DNA of 64,000 bases from Flavobacteriales bacterium (GTDB taxonomy: Bacteria > Bacteroidota > Bacteroidia > Flavobacteriales_F > PHOS-HE28): positions 1 to 64,000 of the forward strand of contig JAIOIH010000031.1 of assembly GCA_019912395.1 (NCBI GenBank). The letters are read 5' to 3'. The translations under genes and the position numbers were made by a program. The notes under the pieces are model-generated. The model was not told the origin of the DNA. It made no database searches and saw only the letters and a program-made list of their open reading frames with translations. Shown piece after piece: positions 5,570 through 16,805 of the stretch; position 1 is the stretch's first letter, and each line of letters opens with the position of its first letter.

Positions 5570-5881
5570 CTAGGACGCCTCCAACTCCATCGCGTCCATT
5601 TCCTCCCGCACCACCTCCCACTCCCCCAAATACCCACGCATCAAGCTCTTCCAAAGCTTGCCGTGGTTGGGCACGCGCAGGTGCAGCAGCTCATGCACGA
5701 TCACATAGTCCTGCACCTTGGCGGGTTGGGTTAGAAGCTCTGTGCTGAAGTTCAAATGACCGTTCGTGGAGCAGCTGGCCCACTTACGGCGCATGGGGCG
5801 AATGCCGAGCCATGCGACCTCCACGCCGATCTTGGTTGACCAGTCATGAACGCGTTGCTTGAAGGCTCCTTTGGCGTCCAT
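5570..5881 (-). CDS. YgjP-like (DUF45) zinc metallopeptidase
   Basis: 103 residues with the zinc signature HELLHLRVPNHGKLW (HExxH plus a downstream His and GKLW), typical of the YgjP/DUF45 family. It is shorter than stand-alone YgjP proteins (about 160-240 residues), so it is the catalytic half only. The ATG overlaps the hsdR TGA by one base (TGATG), so translation is coupled to hsdR. Such genes are often the last gene of type I restriction operons; the role there is unknown, and processing or turnover of the restriction complex is a guess. Confidence 0.85.
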   Translation of the reverse strand: MDAKGAFKQRVHDWSTKIGVEVAWLGIRPMRRKWASCSTNGHLNFSTELLTQPAKVQDYVIVHELLHLRVPNHGKLWKSLMRGYLGEWEVVREEMDAMELEAS

Positions 5882-8800
5882 CAGATGCGGTCAGCTTTCT
5901 CCAACAAAGTGAACAGATCCTCGACCAATCGGGCCACTTGCTCCAGGTCGTCCTGCTGGGCATAGATGGCGAAGGTGACGCGCCTTCGAAGTTCGCGCAG
6001 GTCCTTCTCACTTTGCTTCCAGTGCGGCAGGGCCACAAAGGCCTCCTTGATCTTGCGGCTCACGTTCTCGGCGTCGTTCACCTTGGCATCCAGCAGAGTG
6101 CGATAGACGAAGAAGGTCAAGCCGTCGAAGCCCTTCTCGGCCTGTTCCTTCTTGCGCTCTTCGTTGGTCTGCACCAGAGCTAGTAGCTCGGCCAATGCAT
6201 CCTTGGTAGCGGTCTGGCGGTTCTCGAAACTCTCTTGCACCGCCTTGGCGCGTTCGGCCATGGCGATGAGGAAGGGGTCGTTGCTTTCGTCCTCGGCCTT
6301 CTTCTCGATGCTCTTGATCAGGTTGATCACCTTGGTGCCGTCGCCGCCGAGCTTCTGCTTGATCAGCTCGATGGTGCGCTCGTTGATCTCCAACAGCTCC
6401 AGCGGTGCGTTCACGTCGTAGGTGCTCACGTGCTCTTGGACCAGGTTGCTGGTCTTGCGCTGGAACTCGCGGTCCACCTCCACGCGCTTGGTGTAGGCCT
6501 TGCGCACCACGTCATAGATAGCGCTCAGCGTGGCGTAGGGGTCGATGTAGGGGCGCAGGAAGGCATCCGGGCTGATGATCTCGTAGAGCATCTCGATCTC
6601 CTTGTACTCCTTGAAGAACTCCTTGCGGCGCTCGGGGTCGCGGAAGTGCTCGATGAGCGTGTCGATGTCCTTGTCGTTGAAGGTCTTGGTGACGAGGGCG
6701 AGGTAACCCGGCACCTTCTGCTCCATCTTGCTTTTGAAGAGGGTCTTCAGCAGCGTGATGTCCTTCACGATGGCGTTGATCTCGTCGCTGTCGAACGCTA
6801 AGGCCTTTTCCAGCTTGTCAAAAATGCCCACGAAGTCCAGCACGAAGCCGTGGGGTTTTACCATCTCGGCCTGCTCGTTCTCGTAAGGACGGTTCACCCG
6901 CGCGATGGCTTGCAGCAGCGTGTGGTCGCGCATGGGCTTGTCCAGGTACATGGCGTAGAGGACGGGTGCGTCGAAACCGGTGAGGAGCTTTTCGGTGACG
7001 ATGAGGATCCTGGGGAACTGGTCCAGCTTGGTGAAGGCCTTGCGGATCTGCCGTTCCTTCTTGTCCTCGGTGTGGAACTCCTTCAGCAGGGCGCTGTCGT
7101 TGTTGTTGCCGGTGTACACCACTTCGCTGTATTCGGGCGGCAGGAACTTGTCGAGGGCATGCTTGTACAGGGCGCAGGCCTCGCGGTCCACGCCGACGAG
7201 GAAGGCCTTGTAGCCGAGCGGCTCCACGTTCTCTTTGTAGTGCTTCGCCACGAACTCGGCCACCTTGGGGATGCGGTCCTTGCCCTTGAGAAAATTCTTC
7301 AGGTTCACGGCGCGGTCCAGCACCTTGTTCAGGTGCTCGATGTCCGCCAGCCCTTCGGCATCGGCCAAGCTCAGGAACTCTTTGTCCAACAGTTCATGCG
7401 GCACCAGCATTTCGTTCGGTGCCAAGTTGTAGAAGAGTGGGAGCGTGGTGCCGTCAGCGATACTGTCGGCGATGCTGTACTTGTGCAGGTAGCCTTTGTC
7501 GTCCTCGCCGCCGAAGGTCTTGAAGGTGCCGCGCCCGTATGCGGTCTTGTCGATGGGCGTGCCGGTGAAGCCGAGGTAGCTGGCGTTGGGCAGGCCGGCC
7601 ATCAGGAAGTTGCCCAGGTCGCCGCCGGTGGTGCGGTGCGCCTCGTCGATCAGCACGTAGATGTTCTTCCGCGTGTTGATGTTCGCGGGCATGTCGCGGA
7701 ACTTGTGTACCATGCTCACGATGATGCCGCGGTAGTCATCCTTCAGCAATTTGTTCAGCGCGGCGATGCTGTGGGCATGCTCCACGTTGCCGAGGCCCAG
7801 CGCCGCGAGGTTCTTCATCATCTGGTCCTCCAGCTCGTTGCGGTCGATCAGCAGCAGCACCGTGGGCTTGTCCGCTTCGGGTGCTTTGAAGAGCAGCTCG
7901 GCGGCCTTGATCATCGTGAAGGTCTTGCCGCTGCCCTGCGTGTGCCATACCAGCCCGCGTCGCCGCACGGGATCCAGTGCACGGTGTACCACGCGCTCCA
8001 CCGCCGTGGTCTGGTGCTGGCGGAGGATGTACTTGTTCAGTTCCTCGTCCTTCTCAGCGAAGATGATGTAGTCCTTCAGCAGGGCGAGCACCTGCGGGAT
8101 GGCACAGAATGTTTTCACTTTCGCCTCCAGTCGGCCGGGGATGTAGGATGGCGGACCTCCCGGTCCGCCCGAATGTTCAGCGGCGGATGTGTGTGGCGGA
8201 CCGGGAGGTCCGCCTTCCGATAATGCGTCCTCCTCATAGAGGAGGTATTCCCCTTCCTTCAGCCCACTCTCCACCGGATTGTTCCGGATGTAATCGCGCA
8301 CCTGTTCGAAATGCTCCTCGTTGCGGATCAACCGATCCCAGTATTCATCCATCCACAGCGCACCGGTCTTCCCCCGGCGCTTGTTCACTTCCCGTGCGCT
8401 GAAGCTCTTCCACGACTTCACGATATCGCTCACCGTGTGCTCACCCAGCGGACGGAACAGCACGTGCACGTGGTTCGGCATCACCACATAGCTCACCAGC
8501 TCGAAGTACTGGCCGTCGAAATGCTGGAGTGTGTCGCCGACAATGCGTGCGAGTGACGGCTCACGGAAGGGGCACGAGCCCTTGCCCGCATCCAGCCACT
8601 TGTCCATGCGGCGGCTGAAGCGGTCGAAGTGCTCCAATTCGGTCGAGGCGCTCCACGGCTCGGGGTGCGCTTTCAGCCACGCATCGCGTTCAGCACTCCA
8701 CTCTTCCAACACTTCACGCGGAAGCGAATCGCCCATTCGCCAAGTGACGGAGCAGTACACGCCGGGCTGGTGCCAATGCGGGAGGTGGTGCTCTTTCGGG

Positions 8801-9645
8801 TTGACGGAGGAATACGGGTCGAAGAAGGGGCCGGAGGGCGGACCTCCCGGTCCGCCGGTGCGTGGTGGCGGACCGGGAGGTCCGCCTTCCGGCAGCAGCT
8901 TCCACTCGAAGATGTTGCGGTACACCGTGTTCCACGTCACACCGTACTTGAAGCCGATGGCGTCCGTGGCGGTGAAGAGCTGCTGAGGCACCATCACCTC
9001 CGGCGTTTCGCGGTGGTAGCGGCGTAGCTGGTCGATGCCCAGCGCGATGCCCTCGTCCTTGGTAGCGTTCTTGCACTCGATCACCAGCACGGGGATGCCG
9101 TTGATCAGGAAGACCACATCCTGCCGCGTGGCGTGGTGGCCGTTGTGCGTGGTCCACTCCTCAGTGACCTCGTAGATATTGGATGGCGGACCGGAGGGCG
9201 GACCTCCCGGTCCGCCCAAACACCCGGCCGCACCGGTGCTGTGTGGCGGACCGGGAGGTCCGCCTTCCCTAACTCCCCCCACCGCACTATAATCGATCAG
9301 CACCAGGTCGCGCTCGCGGTCCTCTTCGTGGTCGAAGAACTTGCCCTGGTTGCGCAGGTAGTGGAGGAACTCGCGGTTGCCGTAAATGTCCGTGTGCAGG
9401 AAGTGCAACTTGCCGGGCAACGCACCAACGGCCTCGGAATAGCGCGGGTTGAAGCGCCGCACCTGTGCATCGAGCAGCTCCTCGAAGTACAGGCTGGCAC
9501 CCCTGGCCCGCTCACTGCCCGTGGCCTCGGCGTTGAAGCCCCGGCGCAGCTCGGCCTCTTGGCGCGACACCACGGACCAGCCCACTTCCTTGGCGTAGGC
9601 CAGGATGCGCGCTTGTACGGTTTTGTGTTCGCCGGGGGTAGGCAT
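5881..9645 (-). CDS. hsdR: Type I restriction enzyme subunit R with an embedded REP-associated transposase
   Basis: 1254 residues. The motor and nuclease subunit that translocates DNA and cleaves unmodified DNA. The PD-(D/E)xK nuclease is near residues 175-192 (QDVVFL ... VIECKN). The SF2 helicase has Walker A QGSGKT near 567, DEAH near 666 and GFTGTP after it. Two non-HsdR segments interrupt it: residues about 127-152 (Gly/Pro linker from a palindrome pair) and about 253-500 (linker, RAYT transposase, linker). Removing both leaves about 980 residues, a normal HsdR length. It starts one base after the STAND gene stop. Whether the enzyme still restricts DNA is open; the insertions sit between the nuclease and helicase domains, where a loop may be tolerated. 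Confidence 0.93.
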   Translation of the reverse strand: MPTPGEHKTVQARILAYAKEVGWSVVSRQEAELRRGFNAEATGSERARGASLYFEELLDAQVRRFNPRYSEAVGALPGKLHFLHTDIYGNREFLHYLRNQGKFFDHEEDRERDLVLIDYSAVGGVREGGPPGPPHSTGAAGCLGGPGGPPSGPPSNIYEVTEEWTTHNGHHATRQDVVFLINGIPVLVIECKNATKDEGIALGIDQLRRYHRETPEVMVPQQLFTATDAIGFKYGVTWNTVYRNIFEWKLLPEGGPPGPPPRTGGPGGPPSGPFFDPYSSVNPKEHHLPHWHQPGVYCSVTWRMGDSLPREVLEEWSAERDAWLKAHPEPWSASTELEHFDRFSRRMDKWLDAGKGSCPFREPSLARIVGDTLQHFDGQYFELVSYVVMPNHVHVLFRPLGEHTVSDIVKSWKSFSAREVNKRRGKTGALWMDEYWDRLIRNEEHFEQVRDYIRNNPVESGLKEGEYLLYEEDALSEGGPPGPPHTSAAEHSGGPGGPPSYIPGRLEAKVKTFCAIPQVLALLKDYIIFAEKDEELNKYILRQHQTTAVERVVHRALDPVRRRGLVWHTQGSGKTFTMIKAAELLFKAPEADKPTVLLLIDRNELEDQMMKNLAALGLGNVEHAHSIAALNKLLKDDYRGIIVSMVHKFRDMPANINTRKNIYVLIDEAHRTTGGDLGNFLMAGLPNASYLGFTGTPIDKTAYGRGTFKTFGGEDDKGYLHKYSIADSIADGTTLPLFYNLAPNEMLVPHELLDKEFLSLADAEGLADIEHLNKVLDRAVNLKNFLKGKDRIPKVAEFVAKHYKENVEPLGYKAFLVGVDREACALYKHALDKFLPPEYSEVVYTGNNNDSALLKEFHTEDKKERQIRKAFTKLDQFPRILIVTEKLLTGFDAPVLYAMYLDKPMRDHTLLQAIARVNRPYENEQAEMVKPHGFVLDFVGIFDKLEKALAFDSDEINAIVKDITLLKTLFKSKMEQKVPGYLALVTKTFNDKDIDTLIEHFRDPERRKEFFKEYKEIEMLYEIISPDAFLRPYIDPYATLSAIYDVVRKAYTKRVEVDREFQRKTSNLVQEHVSTYDVNAPLELLEINERTIELIKQKLGGDGTKVINLIKSIEKKAEDESNDPFLIAMAERAKAVQESFENRQTATKDALAELLALVQTNEERKKEQAEKGFDGLTFFVYRTLLDAKVNDAENVSRKIKEAFVALPHWKQSEKDLRELRRRVTFAIYAQQDDLEQVARLVEDLFTLLEKADRI
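8147..8218. repeat. REP-like inverted palindrome pair A (hsdR, after the transposase block)
   Basis: Arm 1 GGCGGACCTCCCGGTCCGCC at 8150-8169 and its exact reverse complement at 8195-8214. Each arm is itself a hairpin (GGCGGACC-TCCC-GGTCCGCC). Read 5' to 3' toward each stem, arm 1 is preceded by GGAT and arm 2 (opposite strand) by GGAA. In HsdR it is translated as a GGPPGPP...GGPGGPPS linker. Confidence 0.9.
8221..8829 (-). mobile_element. REP-associated tyrosine transposase (RAYT, Y1_Tnp/HUH) domain inside HsdR
   Basis: About 203 residues (HsdR residues 273-475) read as a complete RAYT: the family start FFDPYSSVN...LPHW, SVTWRMGDSLP, then VVMPNHVHVLF with the metal-binding HVH (about 390-392), then MDEYWDRLIR and VRDYIRNNPVESGL, whose Tyr (about 453) is the likely nucleophile. 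RAYTs bind and cut single-stranded REP hairpins. There is no ATG, GTG or TTG in frame just before FFDPY, so this domain is normally made only as part of HsdR. Palindrome pairs lie immediately on both sides (8147-8218 and 8833-8890). Catalytic residue assignment is by family pattern, not tested. Confidence 0.9.
8833..8890. repeat. REP-like inverted palindrome pair B (hsdR, before the transposase block)
   Basis: Arms at 8837-8856 (GGCGGACCTCCCGGTCCGCC) and 8867-8886 (reverse complement), with a spacer of only 10 bases. GGAG precedes arm 1; GGAA precedes arm 2 on the other strand. Translated in HsdR as a Gly/Pro linker directly before the transposase domain. Confidence 0.9.
9181..9268. repeat. 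REP-like inverted palindrome pair C (hsdR N-terminal region)
   Basis: Arms at 9197-9216 and 9245-9264 with a 28-base spacer. An extra partial GGATGGCGGACC at 9182-9192 precedes arm 1, as if one arm start had been duplicated. It encodes HsdR residues about 127-152, between DYSAVGGVR and the nuclease core. Confidence 0.9.
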
Positions 9646-9646
9646 G

Positions 9647-12289
9647 CTACGCCTCTGGTTGCACGGTGGGACTTATTCCCAAACGTTCAGCAAGCTTTAT
9701 CAAATGCACGTTGTGCGGTTCGACGGCCAGGCCTTGTTGAACATAGTCGCGTGCTGGCGCTTCGTTCCGGAGGTGTATCGCTAACCAGGCCATTCGCGAA
9801 AGATCATCTGGACCGGCTTCGTTGATGCGGGCGTCCATCACCCGAGCCAGACGTTCCGCGTAATCTCGTTTCTGATCCCTGTTCAGGTCACTACCTTGTT
9901 CCTTGAGGAATTGATTGTACCTGTTTGCGGTGGCTGAGACATCCGTGAACGGAACATTGGACAGTTGTGCACGCTCAATGAATGCATGTACCTCTCCGAG
10001 TGGGTCGTTTGTTTGGTAGCATGCATTCGCCAAAAGCCACCACGCAGCCGCAGCATCCGGTTCCGGTGGCCCATTTTCCAGAAAGCGCCGCAGCTCCTCC
10101 CTCGCTCGTGCGTAACCATCAAGAGTTCTTTGCTCCATATGCCATCGCGCAAGCAAAAGCCAGCCAGGGTTGTAAGCACGGCAAACAGCCTCGAGTACCG
10201 GTGCATAGGAGTCATAGTTGGCTCCTTTCTCGATTTTCTTCGAGATATTCTTCAGGAACTGTTCAAGACGAGCTGCAAGAGCGAGATGAAGGTCGTCTCG
10301 TTGACTTGCTCCCAACATTTGAAGAACCTCCACATCCCGCTCAATAGAAGACTTCGCTGGATGAATGTTCAGCTTCTTGCGGCCAAAGGTGCTCGCGACG
10401 AGGGGGAGACTAATGAACTCTTGGCCGTCAACCTGTGCCCTATGTGTCTCGGCCATTGAATAACGGATCAATAGATCAACTCCATTCTCAACCTCAGTGC
10501 GCTCGTTGGTTGCTTGAATGAGAACCGCCTGAAGAACTAGCCTCGGCACAGGCGAGTTCCAACCACATAGGGTCAAAAAGGCCCGTTGAGCGCAAGGGGA
10601 CAGACTTGAATAGGTTCGTTCAAACAAAGCCGTGAGAATATCGTCTGTTCCCGCGACGAGCTGAGGAATGTTCGCGGCACGATTCAGCTTAGCAACTTCC
10701 CCGAGGAGCACCTTGATCACATAGGGGTGGCCTTCTGATTGCCGAATCAAATCAGCTACATAGCTCACTGAAAGCAAGTCTGCGATGCCCAGCAACTGCG
10801 CAGTCTGCTGAATTAGCTGACGGGTTTCCAATTCTTCCATCCCCTTCACTTCAACCCAATAGTCGCCTTTGAAGTCGTGCAAGCGTGTTGTGATCAGAAT
10901 CTTGTTCGGTGGTCGAACGAAGGTATCGATCCAAGTAAATACTTCGAGCGGATTCTGTGTTGTTTCGAAATTGTCAAAAATGAAAAGGCATGGCCCGAGA
11001 TCACATTTCTGCAACTGGCCTTCGAAATAGGGCCTTGTCTTGAGTGCCTTGTACTGTTCCTGGGAAAGCACCAAGGATGCGTAGAGCTTCGACATATCGT
11101 CGGGTCCAACAACTACGGGTCGAACCGGTTTGGGGCCGTGTTGTTGAAGATCAATATCTCGTGCACTGAGCCACACAATGGCCGCGTACTTCTCTTGGTC
11201 GAACAACTCATGGATCACTTTGAGTGCCAGTGAAGTCTTGCCTATGCCACCCCTACCGTGAAGCGTGACAATGAGACGGCGGTCGTCCAGCAACAAATCC
11301 CTCAACTGCTTCTCTAGTGCAGGCCGGGATACATAATCCTTGATGACCTCAGGTGCATTCGAAAAAGTATTTCCCCGGGCTCGTAGTTCGCCATAGCCAT
11401 CAGTCTCACTTCCCGGCAATACGCCTGGTGGAGACAGAAACTCGGTTGCATCACCTGTAGCCTTATTGTCCGTGTAATATGACAGAAGCTCGTAGCTCTT
11501 ATTTGTGAACCCACCGTTGGCAAAGAAGAAGTCAATGAGCTCCGCGTCCGAATGCATAAGGTTAATCCTCCTAGGACCACCCATTTCCATGTAAACACCA
11601 TCACGCAATGATGAGTCTTGGTTCGTGCGGAGCTTGGCAAAAGCAGTGTCATCCCCTGCTATGGGGGACACCCTGTACTTGCCTGAGATATTGCGATGCA
11701 AGTAGACCCATGGACAGTGAAACAAACTGAAGTTGGCATATACAAGGTCAATACTTTGCTTCAAGAGCTTGGCGCCACCGCCGCAAATGGATGGCTGTGG
11801 TGCTCCATGAGCTTTCGTCTTGTTTCTTAGCGTGGCAAACAAGCGGAACCACCTTTTCATATCCGACTTCACAGGCAATTCCTCCGCTTCAATGCCAAAA
11901 TGATCCAAGGCTTCCTTCAGTGCTTTGGTCGCGTCGTGCTGCCACTCACCAGCCTTACAAGTTCGGGTCAGTTCCACTTTCACCTCACCGGCATTCACAA
12001 GCAAGAATTGCGAGGCCGAACCAGTCAGTGCGTCTTCAATCACCTGTGACCATTCGCCAATACCGGACGCACGCACCAATTGGTGTTCGAGCCGATATCG
12101 GTGTCGGTCCTTGTCGTTCCCGATTGAGGCCACAACAGATAGCACAATTGTCTTTGCTAGTGCTTCGCCAGCGCCCAGTAAAGCGAAGAAGTAGGTAAAA
12201 TCAGAATCGGACTTCGCCTGCTCCGCCCTTTCTAGGACTTGATCAATTGCTCTATGTGCCATAGTGTGTCGTTTAATCAGGGTTTTCAC
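9647..12289 (-). CDS. STAND (NB-ARC-like) NTPase with an HEPN-like N-terminal domain, embedded in the hsd operon
   Basis: 880 residues. Central NTPase: Walker A GRGGIGKT (345-352), Walker B LFIFDNFE (435-442) and ILITTR (464-469), the NB-ARC/STAND pattern. The C-terminal third is helical and TPR-like (YARAREELRRFL, WWLLANACYQ). The N-terminal about 190 residues are helical with R-N-x4-H (R155 to H161, LRNKTKAH), which fits the Rx4-6H motif of HEPN RNases. It lies between hsdS and hsdR. The GTG start overlaps the hsdS stop (GTGA); an ATG at 12262 is the alternative. STAND proteins sense a trigger and activate an effector. The likely job is anti-phage abortive infection, perhaps guarding the RM complex. 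The HEPN call is inference from one motif. Confidence 0.85.
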   Translation of the reverse strand: MKTLIKRHTMAHRAIDQVLERAEQAKSDSDFTYFFALLGAGEALAKTIVLSVVASIGNDKDRHRYRLEHQLVRASGIGEWSQVIEDALTGSASQFLLVNAGEVKVELTRTCKAGEWQHDATKALKEALDHFGIEAEELPVKSDMKRWFRLFATLRNKTKAHGAPQPSICGGGAKLLKQSIDLVYANFSLFHCPWVYLHRNISGKYRVSPIAGDDTAFAKLRTNQDSSLRDGVYMEMGGPRRINLMHSDAELIDFFFANGGFTNKSYELLSYYTDNKATGDATEFLSPPGVLPGSETDGYGELRARGNTFSNAPEVIKDYVSRPALEKQLRDLLLDDRRLIVTLHGRGGIGKTSLALKVIHELFDQEKYAAIVWLSARDIDLQQHGPKPVRPVVVGPDDMSKLYASLVLSQEQYKALKTRPYFEGQLQKCDLGPCLFIFDNFETTQNPLEVFTWIDTFVRPPNKILITTRLHDFKGDYWVEVKGMEELETRQLIQQTAQLLGIADLLSVSYVADLIRQSEGHPYVIKVLLGEVAKLNRAANIPQLVAGTDDILTALFERTYSSLSPCAQRAFLTLCGWNSPVPRLVLQAVLIQATNERTEVENGVDLLIRYSMAETHRAQVDGQEFISLPLVASTFGRKKLNIHPAKSSIERDVEVLQMLGASQRDDLHLALAARLEQFLKNISKKIEKGANYDSYAPVLEAVCRAYNPGWLLLARWHMEQRTLDGYARAREELRRFLENGPPEPDAAAAWWLLANACYQTNDPLGEVHAFIERAQLSNVPFTDVSATANRYNQFLKEQGSDLNRDQKRDYAERLARVMDARINEAGPDDLSRMAWLAIHLRNEAPARDYVQQGLAVEPHNVHLIKLAERLGISPTVQPEA

Positions 12290-13554
12290 ACCCTCACCTT
12301 CCCCGTCATCAGCTCATGAAGCAGGGTGCGAAAGAGATCTTGTAGTTGGTTGCGTTTCTTCCCAGCAACTTCGATCTTATCGTCCACAGCAACGAGGGCA
12401 TCGGCTATGTCAGATTGCTCATCCCGGTCACTCGGAACATAGACGGAGATCTTCTCAAATGCTCCTTTGCTCAACATGGGCATCGTTCCGTACGTCGCGA
12501 AGCCGCGCCAGTAGGCTGCATGATGCAAGAGGAAGTAGTACATGAATCGTGGGTCATGCCGCTCGCTACAAATGATTGAGTTGATCTGTTGATTCGTTGT
12601 ACTGTATGTCTTCGTGCTCATCCCAACCTTACCGATTGTTGCGCCGATGCAAACGCACATCACGGAATGGGGTGGTAGTGGCCTGCTCACTGCATAGCCA
12701 GCCATGGAAATCTTCTTCTCCGAGTCTTTGACTTGGCGGGTATTACCAATGTCAGCAGGTGCGACGAAGTCCGCTTCTTCTGGTGAGTAGTACTCCGGCA
12801 CCTTGGTGCTAGGCGTCGTTCCCGTAACTACGCGACCAATATTACTGAGTGCAACCACCTCCCAACTCTCCGGCACCAAGCCGATCTCGGTCTCCTTCTG
12901 GGCCTCGCCGTGCAGCCCTTCGGTGAAGAGCTTCTGCATCAGGGCCAGCTTCAGCTCGGTGGTGGTGCGGATCAGGCGCTCCTGCTGTTCGATGGCCTGT
13001 TGCACCGTGCTGAGCACTTGGGCGATGCGCTGCTGTTCGGATTGAGGGGGCAGGCGGAGTTGCTGGTTGCTCTTGAAATCAACGAGTTGGAAGTTGTACT
13101 TACCGTCAGCCGCTCTGCTGCAATAATCAGCGAAGGGCACGAGGTCTGAATTGACCAAATAGTAGAAGAAGTCCGGGTCAACTAACTCTTGATCCGGTGT
13201 GGCTTTGAACGTGAACGAGGCAAAGGCAACAGTAGGTCCCGGCAACGCCCGCACTTTAGCGTTCCGTCCCACATTCTGCAGGCTACCACTGGAACCAACA
13301 AATACGATGTCACCTATGCTCAGACGTTTTGCCTCAGGAACATTGCAACCGAGATAGTGATTGAACTTGGACTCGAAGTCGATGTACCCATCTCTAATGT
13401 TCGGGATTGACAATACTAAACTGCCACTATCCTTGTCCGTCTCGTCACGTTTCGCCCATGAAAGGCCGCGCGAGAAATGAGCGACTTCTTCAATGGTCCG
13501 CATCGACCATTCTTCTGGGAAGTCGATATCCGTTAAGTCGTGCATGAAGCTCAT
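12286..13554 (-). CDS. hsdS: Type I restriction specificity subunit
   Basis: 422 residues with the usual two-repeat layout. Target recognition domain 1 spans about residues 1-150, with a conserved helix after it (PPQSEQQRIAQVLSTVQQAI); domain 2 spans about 215-375, with a second helix (DRDEQSDIADALVAVDDKI). The two recognition domains set the two halves of the bipartite target, and the helices set the spacing. The ATG overlaps the hsdM TGA (ATGA). I cannot predict the recognised sequence. Confidence 0.95.
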   Translation of the reverse strand: MSFMHDLTDIDFPEEWSMRTIEEVAHFSRGLSWAKRDETDKDSGSLVLSIPNIRDGYIDFESKFNHYLGCNVPEAKRLSIGDIVFVGSSGSLQNVGRNAKVRALPGPTVAFASFTFKATPDQELVDPDFFYYLVNSDLVPFADYCSRAADGKYNFQLVDFKSNQQLRLPPQSEQQRIAQVLSTVQQAIEQQERLIRTTTELKLALMQKLFTEGLHGEAQKETEIGLVPESWEVVALSNIGRVVTGTTPSTKVPEYYSPEEADFVAPADIGNTRQVKDSEKKISMAGYAVSRPLPPHSVMCVCIGATIGKVGMSTKTYSTTNQQINSIICSERHDPRFMYYFLLHHAAYWRGFATYGTMPMLSKGAFEKISVYVPSDRDEQSDIADALVAVDDKIEVAGKKRNQLQDLFRTLLHELMTGKVRV

Positions 13555-15488
13555 CCCATGATCGACTTTAGGATCTTCTTCATCTCAGCATCGGTTGCGC
13601 GCGCCTCCGTTTCGATGGCTTCCAGTTCCTGTACGATCTGCGTGATGGGCCGATACGTGGCTGCATCGCCGGTGTGAATGAAGCGGCTGGGCGAAAGGTT
13701 GTAGTCGTTCTTCACCAGCTCTGCCAAGGGCATAATGCAACTGAGCTTCTCGACTTCCTTCCAACCGTAGATCACGGAGGCGATATCGTCGATGTGCTCA
13801 GGCCCGAGGAAGTTCTTGGGCTTGCCCTTCTCGAAAAGCTGGCTTGCATTCACCAACAGCACCTTGCCCTGGCGGGCCTTGGGCTTGGCCTTGCGCAGGA
13901 AGAGCACGATGCCCGGTGCGGTGGTATTGTAGAAGAGGTTGTCCGGCAGGTAGAGCACGCTTTCCACCAAGTCATTGTCCACGAAGTACTTGCGCACCTC
14001 GCGCTCCTTGCTGTTGCCATCGTTGCCGCTGCCACGGCTGGCGGCGCCGGTATCCAGCACCACGGCGGCGCGGCCGGTGGGCTTCAAGCTGGCGTGGATG
14101 TGCTGCGCCCAGCCCCAGTCCGCACTGGCCTTGCCGGGGAAACCCGCGCCGGTGGGGAAGCGGTCCAACTCGTCATTGGCATAGTCCGCCTCGGTGAACC
14201 AGTCCTGGTTCCACATGGGGTTGGCCACCACGCGGTCGAAGGTCTTCAGCCGCCCACGCTCCCGGAACTTGGGGTTCTTAAAGGTGTCGCCGATCTCGAT
14301 CTGGCCTTGCATGTCATGGATGATCATGTTCATGTTGGCCATGGCCCAGGTCTCGGCCACGTACTCTTGGCCGTAGAGTTGCAGGGGTGCGTAGGATGGC
14401 GGACCTCCGGGTCCGCCCGCGTGTGGTGGCGGACCGGGAGGTCCGCCTTCCTTCATTCGTTCATCCAGTGCCAGCTCACATTTGATGAGCAGGCCGCCGC
14501 TGCCGCAGCAGGGATCATAGATCTCCATGCCGGGTTCGCACTCCAGCACGCGGGCCATGATCTCGCCCACCTCGCCGGGGGTGTAGAATTCGCCCGCGCT
14601 CTGCCCGCCGCCCTCGGCGAACTTCCGGATGAGGTACTCGTAGCTCTTGCCGATGATGTCGGCCTCCACATCCTTCAGCCCAAGGCGCTTGGTGCTGATG
14701 GCCTCGATGAGGTTGCTGAGGCGGTCGTCCGCCAGGTCGCGCTGCCCGTGGGTGGTGGCGTTGAAGTCCACGCGGTCGATGATGCCTTGCAGCAGCGGGT
14801 TGGCCTTGGCCACTTCGCGCAGGTGGGTGGTGAGCTGCTCGCCGATCTTGTCGCTCAGCTTGCGCACCACGCTCCACACGGGGGCATCGGGATCGGCCAG
14901 CACCAGCGGCAGGTAGAAGCGCACGAGCTTCTTATCGGCCTTCACCAGCCGGAAGGCTTTCTCCCGCGAGCCCACCTCGGCGGCGATGCGGTCCAGCTCA
15001 TCGTCGAACACGTCGCACAGCCGCTTGGTGAAGATGAGCGGGAGGATGTAGTCCTTGTACTTGGGGGCGTCCTTGGCCCCGCGGATGGAGCAGGCGGCAT
15101 CCCAGATCCAGGTCTCGAGGCTTTTGTCCTTCGGTTGGCGGAGTTCGCGGTCCGCCCGAGGCTTAGCGCGGACCGGGAGGTCCGCGTTCCGTACCTTCGG
15201 CGGTCGGCCTGGGCCTCTTTTGGGTAAGGTGTATGGCTTGGGTTCAGGCATTTGGCTGTTGGCAAATAGGCCGTTCGGTTCAGCGGCTTTCAAGCCACTT
15301 GGCTCGGCCAGCTTTATGCTCCCGCCTCTTCCTCGGCCAGTGGCGATCAGGCCCTTCGCCAGTAGTTCGGCTTTCAGGCTTTCGTAGGCGGCTTCGTCTA
15401 GGCCCAGCAACTCACGGGCCTTGCCGTTGCCGAGGCTTTGGTGTTCATTCAATAAGGCTATTAAAGCGGCTTCGGTGGATGCGGGCAT
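13551..15488 (-). CDS. hsdM: Type I restriction modification methyltransferase subunit with a winged-helix N-terminus
   Basis: 645 residues from the ATG at 15488; an upstream TTG at 15530 is possible but less likely. Transfers methyl from SAM to adenine at the HsdS target. Residues about 5-55 look like a winged helix (ALIALLNEHQSLGNGKARELLG, GRGRGGSIKL). A repeat-derived linker (about 58-118) follows, then the HsdM N-terminal helical domain. SAM motif I DPCCGSGG is near residue 324. Motif IV reads NPMW where NPPF/NPPY is usual. A Gly/Pro linker from a palindrome pair interrupts the catalytic domain at about 348-364. It opens the operon, and hsdS, the STAND gene, hsdR and the peptidase follow with coupled starts. 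Confidence 0.95.
   Translation of the reverse strand: MPASTEAALIALLNEHQSLGNGKARELLGLDEAAYESLKAELLAKGLIATGRGRGGSIKLAEPSGLKAAEPNGLFANSQMPEPKPYTLPKRGPGRPPKVRNADLPVRAKPRADRELRQPKDKSLETWIWDAACSIRGAKDAPKYKDYILPLIFTKRLCDVFDDELDRIAAEVGSREKAFRLVKADKKLVRFYLPLVLADPDAPVWSVVRKLSDKIGEQLTTHLREVAKANPLLQGIIDRVDFNATTHGQRDLADDRLSNLIEAISTKRLGLKDVEADIIGKSYEYLIRKFAEGGGQSAGEFYTPGEVGEIMARVLECEPGMEIYDPCCGSGGLLIKCELALDERMKEGGPPGPPPHAGGPGGPPSYAPLQLYGQEYVAETWAMANMNMIIHDMQGQIEIGDTFKNPKFRERGRLKTFDRVVANPMWNQDWFTEADYANDELDRFPTGAGFPGKASADWGWAQHIHASLKPTGRAAVVLDTGAASRGSGNDGNSKEREVRKYFVDNDLVESVLYLPDNLFYNTTAPGIVLFLRKAKPKARQGKVLLVNASQLFEKGKPKNFLGPEHIDDIASVIYGWKEVEKLSCIMPLAELVKNDYNLSPSRFIHTGDAATYRPITQIVQELEAIETEARATDAEMKKILKSIMG
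14394..14451. repeat. REP-like inverted palindrome pair D (hsdM catalytic domain)
   Basis: Arms at 14398-14417 and 14428-14447. Arm 1 has one change from the consensus in the loop region (CTCCGGG for CTCCCGG). GGAT and GGAA precede the two stems. Translated as GGPPGPPPHAGGPGGPPS in HsdM, the same frame as the hsdR copies. Confidence 0.9.
15133..15190. repeat. REP-like inverted palindrome pair E (hsdM linker, different reading frame)
   Basis: Degenerate pair: GGCGGAGTTCGCGGTCCGCC at 15137-15156 and CGCGGACCGGGAGGTCCGCG at 15167-15186. HsdM reads it as RNADLPVRAKPRADREL, not as the Gly/Pro form, so the same DNA element is tolerated in two frames. Confidence 0.8.
15236..15380. repeat. TTCAGGC-family repeat inside the hsdM linker (degenerate)
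   Basis: Pieces GGTTCAGGCATTTGGCTGTT, CGTTCGGTTCAGCGGC, CCACTTGGCTCGGCC and GGCTTTCAGGC resemble the intergenic copies at 3596-3760 and 4806-4890. It encodes part of the HsdM linker (AEPSGLKAAEPNGLF, SQMPEPK). The intergenic copies would encode similar strings on the same strand (SQKPEYAKEP, LNKPKGLKP). The match is by eye. Confidence 0.45.
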
Positions 15489-15869
15489 GGTTGGGTTCGG
15501 AAAAGAACGCTGGTTGGCATTCTTTGGCAAAGTAGGGAAAGGGGGTGATATGCGGGTTCAGTTGTCAGCTTGCCCCGGACTTGAGCGGGGCCTGCCGAAG
15601 CCGCCGAGAGGCTTGAATTGCAGCTTCAAGCCTACGGCCTTTAGCCTCCGGTCGCCTCAAAACGCAACCTTTCCCCGCCCCCACTTCGTATACTACCTTA
15701 TATATGGCCGCTTTGGCCAGGGACCGAAGGCCTCGCCCGCTACTTGAGTTAGCCTGCTTGAGTGCCACAACCAAGATCGTCCTTTCCCAAAACGTTGTAC
15801 TGGCGCGTCCGCCAGCGCTTGCTTTATGCCGCTGACCTCTGGGTGCGTGGTGCGCGGCGCGTGTTGTAG

Positions 15870-16271
15870 GTGACCCGGGAGGAGGTCCTTGCTTCGCTGG
15901 CTATCCGTAGTGCGGAGCTGACTATGCATGATCAGGAGCTGACTACGCATGATCAGGAGCTGGCTACGCATGATCAGGAGCTGGCTACGCATGATCAGGA
16001 GCTGGCTACGCATGATCAGGAGCTGACTACGCATGATCAGGAGCTGGCTACGCATGATCAGGAGCTGACTACGCATGATCAGGAGCTGACTACGCATGAT
16101 CAGGAGCTGACTACGCATGATCAGAAGCTGACTACGCATGATCAGGTGCTGGCTGCGCATGATCAGGAGCTGACTACGCATGATCAGGTGCTGACTACGC
16201 ATGATCAGGTGCTGACTACGCATGATCAGGTGCTCACGCTGGATAGTCAAGTGCTGGCTAGCCACGGTTGA
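15870..16271 (+). CDS. Possible heptad-repeat protein
   Basis: 133-residue frame from a GTG, almost all of it a seven-residue repeat of the type ELTTHDQ. One Leu per heptad could give a weak coiled coil. The opposite strand is also open through the whole array (minus strand 15693-16448, LLIMRSQ repeats), so being open proves little: a 21-base unit without stops is open in several frames. There is no ribosome site and no recognisable family. Treat as uncertain. Confidence 0.3.
   Translation: MTREEVLASLAIRSAELTMHDQELTTHDQELATHDQELATHDQELATHDQELTTHDQELATHDQELTTHDQELTTHDQELTTHDQKLTTHDQVLAAHDQELTTHDQVLTTHDQVLTTHDQVLTLDSQVLASHG
15919..16260. repeat. Tandem array of a 21-bp unit, about 16 copies
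   Basis: Unit CTGACTACGCATGATCAGGAG, with variation mainly ACT/GCT and GAG/GTG. I count 15 copies of CATGATCAG plus one decayed end copy (CTGGATAGTCAA). Every unit holds the palindrome TGATCA. The array lies in a 1.3-kb gap between the divergent hsdM and peroxidase regions. Confidence 0.9.
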
Positions 16272-16331
16272 GCTGCTGGCACGTGCCCAGGTGAGCATGC
16301 CCCAGCATATCATGTGTAGGGATCCCGGAAC

Positions 16332-16385
16332 GATGCACATCAAAAGCAAAATGATGCGCATCAAAAGCAAAACGATGCGCATCAC
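16332..16385. repeat. Second short 21-bp tandem repeat
   Basis: GATGCRCATCAAAAGCAAAA occurs twice with a third partial copy, at a 21-base period, starting about 70 bases after the larger array. It is unrelated in sequence but has the same period. Confidence 0.7.
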
Positions 16386-16805
16386 GTTTGACAGATCGAC
16401 ACCTTTTCTGCCGGAACTGCACAAATGCGGCCTCCGAGAGCGGTACAAAGGCCGAAATTGTTAGTAAGGATCGGGGTCCGGATCGTTCCGGCCCTCGCTG
16501 GGCAAGGGATGTAGACTGTTCCGGGTTATCCACATCAAATAGGGCTGAAACCCTGCAAAGGGCCTTCGGTGCAGCAGGCTCCAGCCCAGTAAGCGATCCG
16601 GCTACCGCCAAGGCCGCCTAAAGCGAACCGCGATCCGCAACGAGCGTGCGGACCAGCGACCTTCTTCCACAAGCAAAAGCCCCGGCCCGCATCGCCACAA
16701 CTGATCCGACCGTTAAGTGTCAGGGATCATGCGGGGGCCGGAACACCTGCGGGAGCATGGGGCAGCACGCTCTTGTCCTCATCCTCCCCCTTCACGCCCC
16801 GCACC
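16386..16805. other. Gap without a supported gene
   Basis: About 420 bases between the repeats and the peroxidase gene. Several short frames are open, but none has a start context, a composition bias or a motif that I would defend. No RNA gene is recognised. Confidence 0.4.

Follow-up and report, generated by a model that had tools for sequence, protein, structure and literature searches.

A REP-associated tyrosine transposase nested in frame, between REP doublets, within the type I restriction subunit HsdR of Flavobacteriales

REP-associated tyrosine transposases (RAYTs) have been described as relatives of transposases that occur in single copy and seem not to move, and how they persist over the long term is unexplained. 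The RAYT described here has in common with subclass 2.4 (PMC6006769) the Y1 HUH core, the motifs NHVH and YI-x-NNP, and the guide pattern W-x5-D-R-x2-R, as well as REPs that flank the RAYT gene and in-frame REPs in and around it. This assignment was based on motifs and not on the profiles of Quentin et al. 2018 (PMC6006769). In-frame REPs have already been described inside subclass 2.4 RAYT genes (PMC6006769) and in other genes (PMC3733652). The repeats also resemble REPINs (Bertels and Rainey 2011, PMC3116915), which are inverted REP pairs forming one long hairpin and accompany a single-copy RAYT, and the intragenic REPs and Rickettsia palindromic elements (PMC3733652), short in-frame palindromes in the loops of unrelated proteins.

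In contrast to subclass 2.4 RAYTs, the RAYT in the window (the whole stretch of 64,000 nucleotides that was analysed) is internal to HsdR; its REPs are few, intragenic and, in the Flavobacteriales genomes, limited to one operon; the hairpin foot is GARG rather than GT[AG]G; and the guide reads W-M rather than W-Q. REPINs described so far form large populations that lie mostly outside genes, whereas the window has five doublets, all in hsdM or hsdR, and, unlike the intragenic REPs and Rickettsia palindromic elements, it has a transposase gene nested in frame between two palindromes. The first-pass annotation of this DNA knew of no described RAYT inside a restriction motor, and a literature search that left out most subscription papers and preprints found no RAYT as an internal domain of HsdR, HmaB, or any other protein.

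The hsdR gene with its in-frame inserts (positions 5881 to 9645; all window genes, domains, motifs, and REP doublets given here are on the minus strand) is a single uninterrupted open reading frame of 1254 amino acids, identified by PADLOC as REase_I. Pfam matches were HSDR_N (the N-terminal nuclease domain, residues 6 to 235; 8941 to 9630), Y1_Tnp (residues 380 to 456), SWI2_SNF2 (the motor domain, residues 544 to 761; 7363 to 8016), and T1R_D3 (residues 860 to 938), and ResIII was also matched. The protein thus meets the definition of a type I HsdR (Pfam HSDR_N plus SWI2_SNF2), with full nuclease and motor domains and with hsdM and hsdS in the operon, but differs from ordinary ones in carrying ∼290 additional residues, split over two inserts. 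The HSDR_N region is broken by a REP doublet at residues ∼127 to 153, an insert that is absent from an empty homologue (G403). As had been estimated from the sequence at first pass, HsdR is of normal length once the inserts are removed; empty HsdRs have 974 and about 966 amino acids. Restriction is probably retained, although this activity is inferred and there are no assay data.

The remainder of the operon comprises hsdM (13551 to 15530; Pfam N6_Mtase and HsdM_N), hsdS (12286 to 13554; Pfam Methylase_S), which has no REP match, and, between hsdS and hsdR, a gene for a protein with Pfam NB-ARC and TPR matches (9647 to 12289). The latter gene is kept in the related genome G395 and swapped in G396 for a different ATPase-like gene; the hsdS-hsdR gap is a swappable accessory slot of the operon. 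A 21-nucleotide tandem array just upstream of hsdM (15870 to 16450) reads as heptad-like HDQELTT on one strand and as MRSQLLI on the other. A second HsdR-like gene (frame of 1081 amino acids) on the same contig (C87:123551-125317 of the own genome) has no RAYT match.

The RAYT/TnpAREP domain occupies residues 274 to 474 (8224 to 8826), at the nuclease-helicase boundary. Its placement in frame between the nuclease and the helicase, proposed by the first-pass annotation, was borne out by the single open frame and the order of the Pfam domains, and the family motifs FFDPY...LPHW, PNHVHVLF, and DYIRNNPVESGL were seen as it had claimed. The RAYT segment alone matched the Y1_Tnp profile (E value, 9e-12), as did the full HsdR (E value, 9.9e-11), and the score of 45.6 bits met the curated cut-off of 23. 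In the PDB the domain matched Escherichia coli TnpAREP (4ER8; E value, 1.3e-5). Alignment with 4ER8 located the HUH motif H392-V-H394 (8464 to 8472), the presumed catalytic Tyr452 (8290 to 8292), which aligns with E. coli Y115, and the metal-site residue Asn456, which aligns with N119; all are invariant in the six HsdR-borne RAYTs found in this study. Both the HUH pair and a Y-x3-NP motif (Y452-I-R-N-N456-P457) are therefore present. Y-x3-NP is characteristic of class 2, and Y-x3-Q of IS200. An IS200/IS605 insertion sequence was rejected because the motif is Y-x3-NP, not Y-x3-Q, and because the RAYT is nested in hsdR and is not a standalone gene.

At the guide-reading positions W94, Q95, E100, H101, and R104 of the E. 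coli protein, the window has W, M, D, R, and R; D and R are allowed guide variants but M is not (PMC6006769). The Met at the Q95 position is found in the Flavobacteriales copies, and Q is found in the copies from another Bacteroidota family. Most guide residues are invariant across HsdR-borne RAYTs that are only about 57% identical. An AlphaFold model of the RAYT (three alignment rows) had a pLDDT of 54, and its top Foldseek matches were the Y1 transposases 2fyx, 2xma, and 2xm3, with 4er8 at rank 14 (E values, 0.016 to 0.13), which lends only weak support to the predicted fold. The model of HsdR residues 1 to 760 (pLDDT, 31.5) was too low for use.

The RAYT is bracketed on both sides by inverted doublets of a 20-nucleotide palindrome, GGCGGACCTCCCGGTCCGCC, and its inverse. 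The location and domain given at first pass stood, with the addition that the feature consists of the RAYT plus one flanking repeat per side and that these flanks are REP doublets. With up to 3 mismatches allowed, there are 10 GGCGGACCTCCCGGTCCGCC sites in the window (0.04 expected), and the whole 4.13-Mb genome has the same ten and no others. Of the five doublets that these sites make up, three are in hsdR and two in hsdM, one of the latter being decayed and at the N-terminal end. The doublet that immediately precedes the RAYT in the coding direction (8837 to 8886) is REPIN-like, encodes GGPPGPPPRTGGPGGPP, and has a single-stranded DNA fold of −35.9 kcal/mol (z score, −8.8); the doublet just downstream (8150 to 8214) encodes GGPPGPPHTSAAEHSGGPGGPP (z score, −7.9); and the third hsdR doublet, inside the nuclease region (9197 to 9264; z score, −8.4), is absent in G403 and in the outgroup G049. 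The hsdM doublet (14398 to 14447), in frame and encoding MKEGGPPGPPPHAGGPGGPPSYAP, is found at the equivalent place in G395, G396, and G399 and also in G299, there with other REPs. The decayed doublet (15137 to 15186; 2 and 3 mismatches) lies in the hsdM N-terminal linker in another reading frame. As single-stranded DNA, the four intact doublets had fold z scores of −7.7 to −8.8. Inverted REP doublets able to fold as one hairpin satisfy the definition of a REPIN in that respect, but there is no dispersed extragenic population, as all copies are within hsdM and hsdR in the window's genome (G000), G395, and G396. The doublets encode GGPPGPP...GGPGGPP linkers. REPs with GARG feet have no stop codon in any of the six frames, whereas GTAG contains TAG, a stop in one frame. 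We infer that stop-free GARG feet may have eased intragenic life.

The same arrangement was sought by scanning 84,980 species genomes, by searching 247 Bacteroidota with a profile, and by another search within one family. Other HsdR proteins, in five additional genomes, were found to carry a nested RAYT at the same place, as the first-pass annotation had proposed looking for. Two are further Flavobacteriales MAGs from the species-genome scan (G395 and G396; RAYTs 87 to 90% identical to that of the window), and three belong to another Bacteroidota family (G149, G299, and G260; about 57% identical). In total, six genomes from two Bacteroidota families share the HsdR site, with the five others 57 to 91% identical and no frameshift in any of the six. 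An assembly or binning chimera might have been suspected, with a genome in 87 contigs and repeats that flank the RAYT domain. However, the five other genomes have the same junction position in diverged sequence; five independent genomes with the same architecture exclude an assembly error without recourse to reads, and this explanation is refuted.

The six HsdR-borne RAYTs grouped as one clade (support, 97/96) when a tree of 56 RAYTs was built, and the sister group of this clade consisted of standalone RAYTs of the window's genus. The empty HsdR of G403, 77 to 98% identical in the parts covered, has WKHEEVGRLE at the insertion site, and the empty outgroup HsdR of G049 has WKCEEIGNLE. Independent reinsertion at the same HsdR site was considered because the RAYT of locus L019 is more diverged at synonymous sites and because G403 is empty. 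It is not the view that we put first, since all six RAYTs belong to one clade and the three Flavobacteriales genomes have flanking insert residues in common: YTPG or YIPG to the right of the RAYT and DYSA-GG at the first insert site occur in all three, and QDNN occurs at the first site in two of them. The arrangement is old and most simply had a single origin. Recombination is still needed even then: the G403 HsdR is closest to that of G396, yet it is empty at both sites, which implies recombination or precise loss. The window and G395 share a conserved operon in unrelated flanking sequence, and therefore the operon moves as a unit. No RAYT relative above 39% identity was found in a plasmid collection, and viral contigs yielded a single relative, at 36%. 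A 1374-amino-acid frame of the own genome (L007) with a weak Y1_Tnp match proved on inspection to have no nested RAYT, and long open frames in L083 and L085 were GC-rich frame extensions rather than fusions.

Comparison of the copies indicated purifying selection on the RAYT. Omega was 0.115, 0.078, and 0.050 for the three Flavobacteriales pairs and 0.11 to 0.20 in the other family, comparable to the values for the motor (0.09 to 0.13 and 0.07 to 0.10, respectively). The low omega may in part reflect a need to fold so that HsdR is not poisoned. Synonymous divergence of the RAYT was above that of the flanks in some pairs (1.14 versus 0.27 to 0.46 for L018-L019). The GC3 of the RAYT was lower, which is perhaps behind the raised divergence. 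Across the two families, the RAYT evolved faster than the motor (58% versus 84% identity).

The four-base foot of the REP hairpins differed between lineages. It was GA[AGT]G or GAAC in G000 and G395 and GT[AGT]G in G396. The second foot base was A at 19 and T at 1 of the 20 ends in G000 and G395, and in G396 it was A at none, T at 7, and another base at 2 of 9 ends (Fisher P value, 9e-6, uncorrected for shared ancestry). This P value overstates the case because feet within one operon are not independent. The usual RAYT foot is GT[AG]G (PMC6006769); the REPs of the window flank the RAYT but have a GARG-like foot, as in G395, and the foot in G396 is GTRG-like. In the other Bacteroidota family, REPs with a GAGG foot and different stems are found in hsdR and at the matching place in hsdM. 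With few exceptions, feet agree within a locus and differ between lineages, and therefore the hsdR and hsdM repeats of each lineage have changed together. Such concerted evolution would be expected of a fused RAYT that acts, or formerly acted, on these REPs. In the whole genomes of G000, G395, and G396, the pattern GGCGGAC-N6-GTCCGCC was found only in the hsd operon. Strict confinement does not hold in general, however: genomes of the other family, which have other RAYTs, have REPs of the same kind elsewhere too. In G399, a genome that is 73% complete, hsdM (L082:3480-3640) holds the REP doublet of G396, but the genome yielded no close relative of the HsdR-borne RAYT. It is possible that this is an orphan REP doublet in a recombinant operon.

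The absence of an in-frame start codon before the RAYT, from which expression only as part of HsdR had been concluded at first pass, holds locally: residues 242 to 295 contain no ATG, GTG, or TTG, but there are in-frame GTGs further upstream. Since the absence is only local, expression solely as a fusion is likely but not proved. The RAYT could conceivably be made separately from an internal start or be freed by processing, the fusion then being mere gene overlap, and the upstream GTGs, a single in-frame GTG within the linker in L019, and an ATG at M304 would be candidate starts. These candidates are not conserved among relatives, however, and M304 is downstream of conserved N-terminal RAYT residues. 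Together with the start-free stretch, this makes a separate product very improbable.

RAYTs were also found in or beside other defence genes. In the window's genus, a RAYT of a second clade is the cistron immediately preceding hsdR at five loci of a different type I system (L078:10839-12155, L084:5121-6119, L087:4155-5228, L088:798-1673, and L097:850-1758), with hsdS upstream where the locus reaches that far and start/stop overlaps in L087. These loci have their own in-frame REPs in the RAYT, hsdM, and hsdR genes, of the type GCCACGCTGGAGCGTGGC plus compensatory stem variants, and every perfect-stem GCCACGCTGGAGCGTGGC-type copy found in four genomes was on a contig with parts of such hsd operons. 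In another Bacteroidota family, four standalone RAYTs adjoin hsdS (L107, L111, L145, and L161), close to RhuM, Fic, or AAA ATPase genes. Nesting of a RAYT in frame was also seen in HmaB-type DUF1156 methylases (L135:3435-7217, minus strand; L141:88-3501; L142:3-3134), where G358 and G248 share one insertion site and G043 has a different one. In G043, the genes next to the methylase match HmaA and HmaC, and the DUF499 ATPase (HmaC) also has a REP-like coded insert. The HmaB methylase of Hma defence (PADLOC) is thus like HsdR a defence protein able to carry a nested RAYT and REPs, but it differs in host protein, in RAYT subclade, and in its two insertion sites. Every long-frame nested RAYT whose host protein could be assigned was in a defence protein. 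Hsd-linked RAYTs had served as the seed of the first search, but defence context played no part in the selection of the HmaB cases.

HsdR thus holds a RAYT with an intact HUH and tyrosine active site, placed in frame between REP doublets where nuclease and helicase meet, and this arrangement is passed on together with the hsd operon. The explanation that we favour, with some reserve, is that this is a RAYT-REP element ("REPtron") living as an internal domain of the type I restriction motor within a mobile defence operon. The RAYT, translated only as part of HsdR, would nick and join the four-base feet of REP hairpins in single-stranded DNA, an inference for which there are no activity data, and would have made new copies of REPs in the operon or replaced existing ones. 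We infer that copies landing in flexible loops survive because the GARG-footed repeats used here are stop-free in all frames and are translated as Gly/Pro-rich linkers. The doublets beside the RAYT may double as linkers, so that nuclease, RAYT, and motor could fold separately and HsdR could stay functional. The presumed gain is in transmission: the RAYT would be hard to lose without breaking hsdR and would travel with a mobile, selectively useful operon. The first-pass annotation had suggested either action on the operon DNA or a passenger in a tolerant loop. Each fits in part, as the REPs decorate the operon itself and the inserts are in loops flanked by Gly/Pro-rich linkers. A strictly passive passenger, captured once, now inert, and kept only by a tolerant loop, would suit the domain-boundary location between flexible linkers and the decay of one hsdM doublet. 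Yet omega values of 0.05 to 0.20, catalytic residues invariant at about 57% identity, and the lack of frameshifts make it quite improbable.

The main rival to the nested-element explanation is exaptation, in which the RAYT is a working part of restriction, an HUH single-stranded DNA nuclease/ligase tethered to a DNA motor. It would act on single strands or hairpins exposed in translocation or on invading single-stranded DNA, and the REPs would be leftover or secondary linkers. The conserved active site and low omega are compatible with this, as is the recurrence of related RAYTs in defence, whether as cistrons between hsdS and hsdR, beside hsdS, or nested in HmaB, and as is the fact that all long-frame nested RAYTs of assignable host lie in defence proteins. 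However, highly similar HsdRs without the RAYT exist, the RAYT evolves faster than the motor, and exaptation alone does not predict REPs that change in concert with the lineage. Conversely, gene conversion could homogenise the REPs without the RAYT, which weakens the argument for the nested element. Exaptation seems to us unlikely, but present data cannot separate the two. It is a tentative possibility, of similarly low standing, that RAYTs are a recurrent working part of defence operons, several lineages having been recruited independently into type I restriction and Hma systems, as domains or as cistrons, for an HUH single-stranded DNA nuclease that aids defence. The benefit would then be defence or operon diversification, and the operons would be more than merely good vehicles.

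The REP-doublet linkers, and the recurrence in other genomes and defence proteins, turn what seemed an oddity into a recurrent arrangement. The HsdR case joins an HUH nuclease and a DNA translocase in a natural fusion. The lineage-specific foot changes in a small closed set of repeats make REP-RAYT coevolution testable. This RAYT has persisted through integration into a host protein, and its relatives are in or beside other defence genes. We offer the hypothesis that mobile defence operons may serve some RAYT-REP systems as the vehicle of their survival and spread.
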